Shown here: positions 17,050 through 52,229 of the stretch, piece by piece | Layout: each line of letters starts with the position of its first letter | How positions within the stretch are numbered: the stretch's first letter is position 1 | DNA from: Paeniroseomonas aquatica | GTDB taxonomy: Bacteria; Pseudomonadota; Alphaproteobacteria; Acetobacterales; Acetobacteraceae | NCBI RefSeq assembly: GCF_030409335.1 | Contig: NZ_JAUFPN010000197.1 | Span: 1 to 64,000 of the forward strand | Length of the DNA: 64,000 nt | Reading direction: 5' to 3' | Position numbers and translations under genes: made by a program | Notes under the pieces: generated by a model | Databases searched by the model: none | Seen by the model: only the letters and a program-made list of their open reading frames with translations | Told to the model about the DNA's origin: nothing

Positions 17050-17134
17050 GCGGGCGTGGTGGAATTGGCAGACACGCTGGATTTAGGTTCCAGTGGCGCA
17101 AGCCTTGGGGGTTCAAATCCCTCCGCCCGCACCA
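17050..17134 (+). tRNA. tRNA-Leu (anticodon UAG)
   Basis: This is an 85-nt class II tRNA. The acceptor arms GCGGGCG and CGCCCGC pair perfectly and CCA is encoded. The anticodon stem CTGGA/TCCAG encloses TTTAGGT, giving anticodon TAG. It has the long variable arm (TGGCGCAAGCCT) expected of tRNA-Leu. It lies 68 nt upstream of the trigger-factor start and may be co-transcribed with it. Confidence 0.95.
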
Positions 17135-23960: not shown

Positions 23961-24032
23961 GGGCGCTTAGCTCAGCGGTAGAGCGCCTGCCTTACACGCA
24001 GGTGGCCGTAGGTTCGATCCCTACAGCGCCCA
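23961..24032 (+). tRNA. tRNA-Val (anticodon UAC)
   Basis: The acceptor stem GGGCGCT pairs with AGCGCCC. The anticodon stem CCTGC/GCAGG encloses CTTACAC, giving anticodon TAC. The T arm GTAGGTTCGATCCCTAC is canonical. CCA is not encoded and must be added by the nucleotidyltransferase, unlike the Leu and Asp tRNAs in this window. Confidence 0.95.
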
Positions 24033-25962: not shown

Positions 25963-26039
<77 letters not shown>

Positions 26040-50181: not shown

Positions 50182-51489
50182 TCAGGCCTTGATGCGGGCG
50201 ATCGCATCCTCGAGCGAGAGTTCCAGCCGCTCGCCGGTGGCGCGCCGCTTCAGCTCGACCTTGCCGACCGCCGCGCCGCGCGGCCCGACGATGGCCTGCC
50301 AGGGGTAGCCCATCAGGTCGGCATCGGCGAATTTCACCCCGGCGCGGTCGGCGCGGTCGTCGTAGACCGCATCCGGGTCGAAGGCGGCGTAGAGCCTGTC
50401 GCACAGCGCATCGGTCGCGGCATCGCCCTGCTTCAGGTTCAGCACCGCGACCTTGAAGGGGGCGATCGCCTCCGGCCAGCGGATGCCGGCCTCGTCGTGG
50501 TTCGCCTCGATGATGGCGCCGACCAGGCGGGAGACGCCGATGCCGTAGCTGCCCATCTCGGGCACCACCATCTTGCCGTCCGCCCCGGCCACCTGCAGCC
50601 CCATCGCCGCGCTGTACTTGGTGCCGAAGTAGAAGATGTGGCCGATCTCGATGCCGCGCGCGCTGACCTGCCGCTCGGCCGGCACCTGGGCCCAGGCGGC
50701 CGCGTCGTGCTTCTCGTCGGTCGCGGCGTAGCGGCTGGTCCAGAAGTCCATGACCGGCGAGAGGTCGCCGTCGTAGTCGACCGGCTGCGACAGCGCGTCG
50801 AATTCCAGCAGGTCCCGGTGCAGGTAGACCTGGCTCTCGCCGGTCTCGGCCAGGATCAGGAACTCATGGGAGAGGTTGCCGCCGATCGGCCCGGTATCGG
50901 CCTGCATCGGGATGGCCTTCAGCCCCATGCGGGCGAAGGTCCGGAGGTAGGCGACGAACATCTGGCGGTAAGATTTCTGCGCCCCGGCATAGTCGAGGTC
51001 GAAGGAATAGGCGTCCTTCATCAGGAATTCGCGGCCGCGCATCACCCCGAAGCGGGGGCGGACCTCGTCCCGGAACTTCCACTGGATGTGGTAGAGGTTG
51101 CGCGGCAGGTCCCGGTAGGATTTCGCGTAGGTCTTGAAGATGTCGGTGACCATTTCCTCGTTGGTCGGGCCGTAGAGCATCTCCCGGTCGTGCCGGTCCT
51201 GCAGCCGCAGCATCTCCGGCCCATAGGCGTCGTAGCGCCCGCTGGTGCGCCAGAGGTCGGCGGTCTGGATGGTCGGCATCAGGATTTCCTGGGCGCCGGC
51301 GCGGTCCTGTTCCTCGCGGACGATCTGCTCGACCTTCTGCAGCACCCGCCAGCCGAGCGGCAGCCAGGCATAGATGCCGGCGCTGGTCTGCCGGACCATC
51401 CCCGCGCGCAGCATCAGCCGGTGCGAGGCGATCTGCGCATCGGCCGGGGTTTCCTTGAGGGTCGGCAGGAAGGCGCGGGACAGGCGCAA
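50182..51489 (-). CDS. proS: Prolyl-tRNA synthetase, short alphaproteobacterial type
   Basis: This is a 435-residue class II synthetase. I place the start at a TTG (51489), because the conserved opening [44 protein letters not shown] begins there and GGAG lies 8 nt upstream. No ATG or GTG is available. Motif 2 is [26 protein letters not shown], and motif 3 is [16 protein letters not shown]. The INS editing domain of the E. coli-type enzyme is absent, so this is the compact form. It is the first gene of the proS-lolC-lolD-dnaE operon. Confidence 0.93.
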
Positions 51490-51602
51490 GGCGGGCTCCG
51501 GGGCGTGAGGGCAGGGGCAGGAGGGCGGCCGGACACTAGGGGCGGGGCGCCCGTTCCGCCAGGGGCTAGGCCCTTCCGCTGCACTGCCGCAATTTTCTTG
51601 CG

Positions 51603-51631
51603 ATGTTGCGGTGCGGTACGAACGAAACCAA
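51603..51631 (-). promoter_or_regulatory. Candidate promoter of the proS operon
   Basis: On the minus strand, TTGGTT (51631-51626) and CAACAT (51608-51603) are 17 bp apart, in a locally AT-richer stretch about 115 bp upstream of the proS start. The match is partial, but it is the best one between the terminator at 51692 and proS. The rest of 51490-51691 holds no gene that I can support. Confidence 0.35.
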
Positions 51632-51691
51632 AAGAAAATTCCGCTTTCGCGTTGTTTCCCACTTGGCGAAACGACACCCATGCAGTAGACG

Positions 51692-51724
51692 AAAAAAAGG
51701 GCCGCACCCGTTGGGGTACGGCCC
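51692..51724 (-). terminator. Intrinsic terminator with seven-U tract
   Basis: An 11-position stem (ten Watson-Crick pairs and one U-G) with loop CAAC is followed on the minus strand by TTTTTTT. It ends transcription coming from the DUF1467 gene and/or the candidate small RNA, about 200 bp before proS. Confidence 0.85.
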
Positions 51725-51783
51725 GAGTTTAGGGAGGAAACGCCAGTCACACGGCAGAGAGAGGACCAACCCTCCCTCTGCCA
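51692..51783 (-). ncRNA. Candidate small RNA with anti-Shine-Dalgarno motif
   Basis: The minus strand holds a compact two-hairpin element. Hairpin 1 (51782-51771 with 51764-51753) has a 12-bp stem with a 6-nt loop. A 28-nt single-stranded stretch (51752-51725) contains UUUCCUCCCUAAA, in which CCUCCC is 51737-51732. Hairpin 2 (51724-51714 with 51709-51699, loop CAAC) runs into seven U residues (51698-51692), a textbook terminator. The one non-Watson-Crick position in each stem is a G-U pair on the minus strand but an A-C mismatch on the plus strand, which fixes the transcribed strand. It is about 90 nt long. It could be an independent sRNA or the 3'-UTR end of the DUF1467 transcript. Confidence 0.6.
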
Positions 51784-51908
51784 GTATGTTGGCGCCAGCG
51801 ACCAACGTGGCACAACCTCAATCGATGCCCGCGTCGCCAGAAAAAGATGCTGCCAAACCAACCTCGCACAACAAGAAGGCGACACCGGCCTGACAGCCGG
51901 AAAGTCGC

Positions 51909-52169
51909 TCATTTTTCGGGCAAGGCCAGCCAGCCGGTGCGGAAGCTGAGCCAGTCGCTGTCGATCAGCAGGAAGACGAAGACGAAGATCACGCTGGAAA
52001 CCAGCGTGGTGACCGCCGCCTTCCGCCAGAGTCGCGGCGCCTGCGGCGTGCCGCGCCAGCCGCTTTCGGGGTCGCCCTCCGCCTCCGGGCGGGTGCCGAA
52101 GGGCAGCACCGCGAAGAGCACCACCCACCAGATCAGGAAATAGACGACGACACCGCTGACGAGGCTCAT
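51909..52169 (-). CDS. DUF1467 family small membrane protein
   Basis: This is an 86-residue protein with two membrane helices (about 4-24 and 53-72). Between them is the conserved polar loop [31 protein letters not shown], typical of the alphaproteobacterial DUF1467 family. The [13 protein letters not shown] signature is intact. The gene lies upstream of proS on the same strand, as in many relatives, but here a strong terminator separates the two. Its function is unknown. Confidence 0.85.
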
Positions 52170-52229
52170 GACCGCTGTGTGGGGCCGCTTCGCCGCGGCG
52201 GCAAGACCGGGCCGGCGCCGCCGCCCGGA

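Follow-up and report, generated by a model that had tools for sequence, protein, structure and literature searches.

A predicted alpha-r8/suhB/MmgR small RNA gene in Paeniroseomonas aquatica and its conserved location between DUF1467 and proS in Acetobacteraceae

The window, a whole 64,000-nt stretch of Paeniroseomonas aquatica DNA (contig NZ_JAUFPN010000197.1, positions 1 to 64,000), carries at 51692-51783 on its minus strand an element that its sequence identifies as a small RNA (sRNA) gene of the alpha-r8/suhB/MmgR (RF00519) family, of a proS-linked type, with an RNA of ~92-100 nt and a predicted 5′ end. A regulatory RNA and its anti-Shine-Dalgarno (anti-SD) seed had been picked out from the raw sequence in a first-pass annotation; the family was already known. 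The sequence-based case for a credible, well-conserved sRNA gene of this described family is convincing, and the gene is mostly ordinary. What our analysis adds is the conserved proS-side location, which defines a syntenic DUF1467/proS-linked lineage, and control DNA that differs between the siblings.

Results

Structure and family of the element

The first-pass annotation had described three minus-strand parts, namely a hairpin of 12 bp, a linker of 28 nt with UUUCCUCCCU, and a terminator hairpin ending in seven U; folding and a terminator scan confirmed them all. In the first hairpin, the 5′ arm GGCAGAGGGAGG (51782-51771, minus strand; assigned from fold and covariation) pairs with the 3′ arm CCUCUCUCUGCC (51764-51753, minus; fold) over 12 bp, including one G-U on the minus strand. 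The linker (51752-51725, minus) contains the 10-mer anti-SD seed UUUCCUCCCU (51740-51731, minus), assigned by exact match and conservation. The intrinsic terminator (51692-51724, minus) has an 11-bp stem (51724-51714 paired with 51709-51699, including one U-G), a loop of 4 and U7 at 51698-51692; the terminator scan found 1 site versus 1.4 expected, which alone is not above chance.

The minimum free energy of the minus strand was -50.3 kcal/mol versus a shuffle mean of -32.1 (z = -5.1), and none of 200 shuffles equalled it. The earlier claim that the structure is built for the minus strand stood in part: the plus-strand fold was less stable in absolute terms (-43.8), with the wobble pairs turned into A/C mismatches, but its z was likewise -5.1 against its own shuffles, so that the fold alone is no proof of strand. 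The element is assigned to the minus strand by its seed, its U-tail and its match in Rfam. The linker had also been taken as unpaired. Its length was upheld, but partial pairing is possible through a weak 4-bp hairpin adjoining the seed, GCCG(UGUGAC)UGGC (51742-51755, minus), which appeared in the RNAalifold consensus and also folds in the Rfam-bounded 79-nt stretch. Here GCC at the end of the first hairpin's 3′ arm can pair with GGC at 51744-51742. RNAalifold prefers this GCCG/UGGC pairing upstream of the seed, which in the window competes with the 12-bp stem and excludes its outer part; the pairing was kept in 23-24 of the 24 rows of the alignment described below, with no two-sided change.

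When the whole window was scanned with Rfam, four matches exceeded their cut-offs, three tRNAs and RF00519. The tRNA genes lie on the plus strand at 17050-17131, 23961-24032 and 25963-26036. The RF00519 match (suhB, 'Makes More Granules Regulator RNA') spans 51684-51762 on the minus strand and covers the full model (1-77) with 48.8 bits, the cut-off being 41. PMC12559287 describes alpha-r8 RNAs by a terminator and a single-stranded 10-nt UUUCCUCCCU preceded by a weak hairpin. Members of the family are believed to silence mRNAs by masking ribosome-binding sites. The seed in the window is identical to this published 10-mer, and a Rho-independent terminator lies downstream of it; the GCCG/UGGC pairing could correspond to the weak hairpin. 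N-formylglutamate amidohydrolase (FGase) is the usual neighbour where a species has a single alpha-r8 copy, but extra siblings do not follow this rule strictly. The window copy is flanked by DUF1467 and ProS rather than FGase; since SisB-D in Caulobacter also lie away from FGase, the missing neighbour does not exclude membership. The family is stated for all Alphaproteobacteria except Rickettsiales (PMC12559287), so its presence in Acetobacteraceae was expected.

The first-pass annotation had instead placed the element in the CcsR/alpha-r14 ('cuckoo') family, or a convergent form of it; such an RNA would be expected to act beside a DUF1127 protein. CcsR carries a C-rich anti-SD motif, and alpha-r14/CcsR is likewise alphaproteobacterial. 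PMC10253847 associates CcsR RNAs with DUF1127 proteins. However, a permissive Rfam scan of 51400-52200 (E up to 10) listed 12 matches, of which RF00519 was the best and none was ar14 (RF02344); the 11 others (mir-598, NmsRb, SorY, sbrA, BjrC1505 and others) scored far under their cut-offs and were disregarded. The window Rfam scans also gave no match to alpha-r15, a family that is presumably included in Rfam. A whole-genome search with ar14 found nothing, but 14 control genomes were silent too, so this result shows little. The two flanking genes are PF07330 and ProS, with no DUF1127 gene as a neighbour. The motif named earlier, CCUCCUCCC, is the loop reported for the rhizobial models SmelA075 and SmelA099 in PMC3927594, and was replaced by UUUCCUCCCU as the motif actually present. 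With RF00519 at the top, ar14 unlisted and DUF1467/ProS rather than DUF1127 as neighbours, membership in alpha-r14/CcsR was rejected and we consider it extremely improbable. The accompanying suggestion that the RNA titrates an RNA-binding protein was without support in this analysis.

Copies, conservation and covariation

The host genome contains three RF00519 copies. L002 adjoins the usual alpha-r8 neighbour FGase (PF05013), L001 (G000:C272:1450-1523) adjoins an impB/mucB-type Y-family polymerase gene, and the third, the window copy between DUF1467 and proS, has the lowest Rfam score of the three. L001 and its relatives L039, L040, L055 and L056 are extra alpha-r8 copies on contigs of ~7 to 24 kb and may be plasmid-borne or mobile siblings. 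An RF00519 search of 60 genomes, the host's own included, gave a match at E 0.001 in 41 and above the cut-off in 39. Of the seven further genomes from the genus, six had the proS-linked copy; the seventh (75% complete) had no RF00519 match whatsoever.

From 35 related family genomes, 89 matches were obtained and 80 stretches were taken for comparison, nine matches being left out (two from G031, two from G033, three from G034 and two from G035). These 80 stretches and the three host copies (L001-L003) were compared with the window's ProS and DUF1467 proteins. The resulting orthologous set of 24 loci had a proS match in 22, a DUF1467 match in 22 and both in 20. A filter had required five consecutive T downstream of the seed, which L061, L095, L098, L101 and L107 lacked; the first four were restored to the alignment (A1) nonetheless, and L107 was kept out, as DUF1467 was not found there and proS lay ~1 kb off.

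In the 24-row alignment, two-sided changes occurred in 13 of 23 pairs (shuffle mean 7.7, equalled by 1 of 500 shuffles) and in 37 cells (reached by 0 of 500), although these shuffles ignore relatedness and the structure was taken from one of the 24 rows. The annotated structure outscored every slid version. Covarying pairs were found in both helices, 7 of 12 in the first hairpin and 6 of 11 in the terminator, and comparative sequence evidence indicates that both stems covary. Conservation was poor at the two outermost pairs of the 12-bp first hairpin, pair 14-42 failing in 16 of 24 rows and pair 13-43 in 6. Nine of the ten seed columns were invariant and the last nearly so, and the linker from hairpin to terminator was nearly invariant as a whole. 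Hence the expectation that both stems and the seed loop would be kept in relatives, with compensatory changes, was borne out.

The alignment also bears on an off-switch reading, in which the 5′ arm (AGGGAGG) would act as an internal sponge by folding back on the seed. The window has 7 nt in this arm that are an exact complement of the seed. No other of the 24 rows reaches this length: the remaining 23 have 4 to 6 nt, with 6 in just one of them, and folding favours the hairpin. A conserved self-sponge was therefore rejected, and we give such a switch very little chance of being correct.

A lineage covariance model, R1, was built from the 24 aligned loci, window row included. On the window it matched 51692-51792 with 107.4 bits, the window being one of the 24 source rows, and it scored L107 (G030) at 79.2 bits, making this locus the 25th member of the proS-linked lineage. 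At 60 bits or more, R1 gave 93 matches, distributed over 91 of the 150 genomes searched from the bacterial family; these figures count the host's own genome and the source rows. The 60-bit line was our choice, and the next lower score was 56.6. Among the best 30 loci of this search, which include the host's own and some source rows, DUF1467 was found at 30 and proS at 29. In a collection of named species, 13 of 80 proS loci had an R1 match of at least 74 bits, always upstream of proS; carriers include Belnapia mucosa, Siccirubricoccus, Rhodovarius, Neoroseomonas, Caldovatus and Acidocella. Ten weaker R1 rows (34.8 bits and below) were also obtained from this collection, three of them on the opposite strand. 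Gluconacetobacter L185, L190 (1205-1303) showed weak matches upstream of proS (26.8 and 23.2 bits), which are perhaps decayed copies. The listed proS loci of Acetobacter, Asaia and Brytella, as well as one Caulobacter proS locus (L230), gave nothing with R1 at E values up to 0.1.

The location between DUF1467 and proS, unfamiliar in the first-pass annotation, is thus conserved across many Acetobacteraceae. In a class sample of 289 genomes, which includes the host's own and a few family members, the best R1 score outside the family was 56.2 bits. Among 19 loci outside the family, both DUF1467 and proS lay within the stretch in three and DUF1467 alone in three more, and the location may accordingly be older than the family. 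R1 matches also occurred in twos or threes a few hundred bases apart (G129:C4:165033-165642, and on G357:C95, G186:C7, G314:C4 and G411:C1). We found no publication on the proS-linked lineage in the limited open literature searched, which excludes the 2016 phylogeny of Lagares et al.

Independence from neighbouring genes

The element lies between the DUF1467 gene (51909-52169, minus; PF07330, 83.4 bits) and proS, encoding prolyl-tRNA synthetase (50182-51489, minus; TTG start; PF00587 and PF03129, with tblastn across relatives). DUF1467, the element and proS share one strand with a short gap, and a strict sigma-70 scan found no site; both points would fit a reading in which no separate RNA exists and the element merely serves DUF1467 as its 3′ UTR or terminator, or proS as its leader. 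A promoter-like stretch at 51783-51815 (minus) nevertheless contains the hexamers TTGTGC (51815-51810) and CATACT (51788-51783), which are kept in seven of seven genus sequences, the window's included. Their 21-nt spacing is longer than usual and the strict scan was empty, so we treat this stretch as a putative promoter.

Several observations argue against the UTR or leader reading. A terminator-like hairpin (51879-51908, minus; z = -2.9, equalled by 2 of 200 shuffles) separates DUF1467 from the sRNA. The sRNA is retained where DUF1467 is unmatched (2 of 24 loci) or proS is unmatched (2 other loci), and it lies ~1.2 kb from proS in two named loci. In the seven-sequence genus alignment the sRNA is visibly better conserved than the remaining gap, and the other alpha-r8 copies of the host have different neighbours. 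A DUF1467 3′ UTR as the whole explanation is unlikely, and the broader reading without an independent RNA is very improbable as well. The earlier proposal that the minus strand carries an sRNA gene of its own, with the anti-SD seed exposed, looks right, judging from the stems and seed kept in relatives.

PhaR-like boxes differ between siblings

In Sinorhizobium meliloti, PhaR (AniA) represses mmgR and recognises a palindrome in its promoter with the core YGCRNYGCR (PMC12542648). The host genome encodes a PhaR-type protein (PF07879, 107 bits). We scanned for a loose core (YGCRNYGCR) and a strict one (TGCRNYGCA) around the copies of the proS-linked lineage (25) and around the other copies (52); another 6 of the 83 loci lacked a seed row that could be used. 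Upstream of the seed (-110 to -20), a loose box was found in 44 of 52 other copies (background 0.113) versus 5 of 25 lineage copies (0.127), whereas downstream (+100 to +165) it was found in 22 of 25 lineage copies (0.089) versus 5 of 52 others (0.083); these intervals were picked after inspecting the data, so the backgrounds understate chance. The strict box gave the same contrast, with 41 of 52 others versus 4 of 25 lineage copies upstream and 0 of 52 versus 16 of 25 downstream. L107 was grouped with the lineage in these counts; when it was grouped with the others, the upstream numbers became 45 of 53 and 4 of 24. Upstream boxes of the other copies lay mainly at -100 to -85 (36 of 52) and -52 to -40 (25 of 52).

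The window copy has no PhaR-like box within 110 nt upstream of the seed, and the upstream region of the host's FGase-linked copy has two. Between the sRNA and proS, a PhaR/AniA-like box, CGCACCGCA, is present at 51615-51607 (minus) in the loose form only, flanked by an inverted pair AATTTTCTT ... AAGAAAATT (51591-51640, minus). The proS-side arm of this pair is well conserved in the seven genus sequences, and in the other arm it is mainly TCTTT that is kept. At named proS loci, 9 of the 13 that carry the sRNA and 3 of the 65 that lack it had a strict box within 260 nt upstream of proS (backgrounds 0.115 and 0.020); for a loose box the counts were 9 of 13 and 16 of 65 (0.33 and 0.18). Two of the 80 loci, with too short upstream DNA, were excluded from this count, and two of the 13 have the sRNA ~1.2 kb from proS.

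The upstream frequency in the lineage, 5 of 25, is near background, so that the promoter of the proS-linked sibling has probably escaped PhaR control. That the sibling has been rewired Acetobacteraceae-wide, with no PhaR (PHB-sensing) control at the promoter and a PhaR-type operator kept or gained downstream, is a more tentative proposal, which we hold to be possible and somewhat doubtful.

Candidate targets

Candidate targets were sought in four genomes of the genus as an exact complement of the 10-nt seed followed by ATG. The search found 29 sites, 13 of which start substrate-binding proteins, 9 of these TctC; L262, at 26.9 in Pfam where the cut-off is 27, was included as a substrate-binding protein. 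As controls, two patterns differing by one base gave 8 and 15 sites, and 3 of these 23 were substrate-binding proteins; five of the 23, whose ORFs are just 12 to 80 aa long, were left unscanned. The excess (13/29 versus 3/23) had a Fisher p of 0.014. It became 0.038 for ORFs of at least 100 aa (13/28 versus 3/18), 0.043 for Pfam-annotated genes (13/26 versus 3/16) and 0.024 when three ortholog pairs were collapsed by eye (11/26 versus 3/23). For TctC alone p was 0.050 (9/29 versus 2/23), and each genome has at least 133 TctC genes, a very large number. These site counts are suggestive of a transporter target class of substrate-binding proteins, the excess being modest to weak. The seed is common to all three copies, and the targets are not attributable to the window copy alone.

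Discussion

The family, the conserved seed, the covarying stems, the conserved location and the presence of hfq and PhaR-type genes are backed by sequence. We consider it highly probable that the element encodes a trans-acting alpha-r8 sRNA, probably Hfq-dependent, that would block translation through its seed and represents a DUF1467/proS lineage in Acetobacteraceae. Transcription would start at the sRNA's own promoter and stop at its own terminator; the first hairpin would shield the 5′ end and leave UUUCCUCCCU accessible, and the U-rich tail would bind Hfq, whose gene is present in the host genome (111 bits). The seed would then pair with AGGGAGG-type ribosome-binding sites and block translation, the most plausible targets being uptake and catabolic genes. 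This mechanism is carried over by homology from SisA of Caulobacter, whose 10-mer pairs with an mRNA leader and which shows Hfq-dependent pairing with the sponge CrfA (PMC12559287).

The differing placement of PhaR-like boxes among siblings is the most interesting leftover. If the rewiring is true, one seed would be produced under two independent signals, and proS, and with it proline charging, might be coupled to the carbon-storage state. Whether alpha-r8 siblings work independently of one another or are redundant is a question that PMC12559287 leaves open. With PhaR-like boxes at the other copies and not at the window copy, sibling redundancy becomes testable in a second bacterial group.

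Among known sRNAs, AbcR1/2 (alpha-r15) resemble the window sRNA in their CU-rich anti-SD motifs, and their described targets include mRNAs of transporter substrate-binding proteins. The target excess found here fits this preference for transporter mRNAs in AbcR and similar anti-SD sRNAs, with no proof for the window copy. AbcR1/2 differ in forming a tandem pair beside lsrB in S. meliloti, with three stem-loops and two motifs.

MmgR/suhB of S. meliloti, the other studied alpha-r8 member, limits PHB storage according to two reviews. It shares with the window copy the seed 10-mer, a terminator close downstream and a possible GCC/GGC weak hairpin. MmgR is reported to be 77 nt long, to be the only alpha-r8 copy in its genome and to be repressed by PhaR (AniA), for which its promoter has a binding box. 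In contrast, the window copy has a long covarying first hairpin, DUF1467/proS flanks and no PhaR-like box in the 110 nt upstream. SisA-D of Caulobacter crescentus are like the host set in comprising several copies with one common seed, their promoters being unrelated in Caulobacter (PMC12559287). SisA is FGase-linked; in the host, the FGase-linked copy is L002 and not that of the window.
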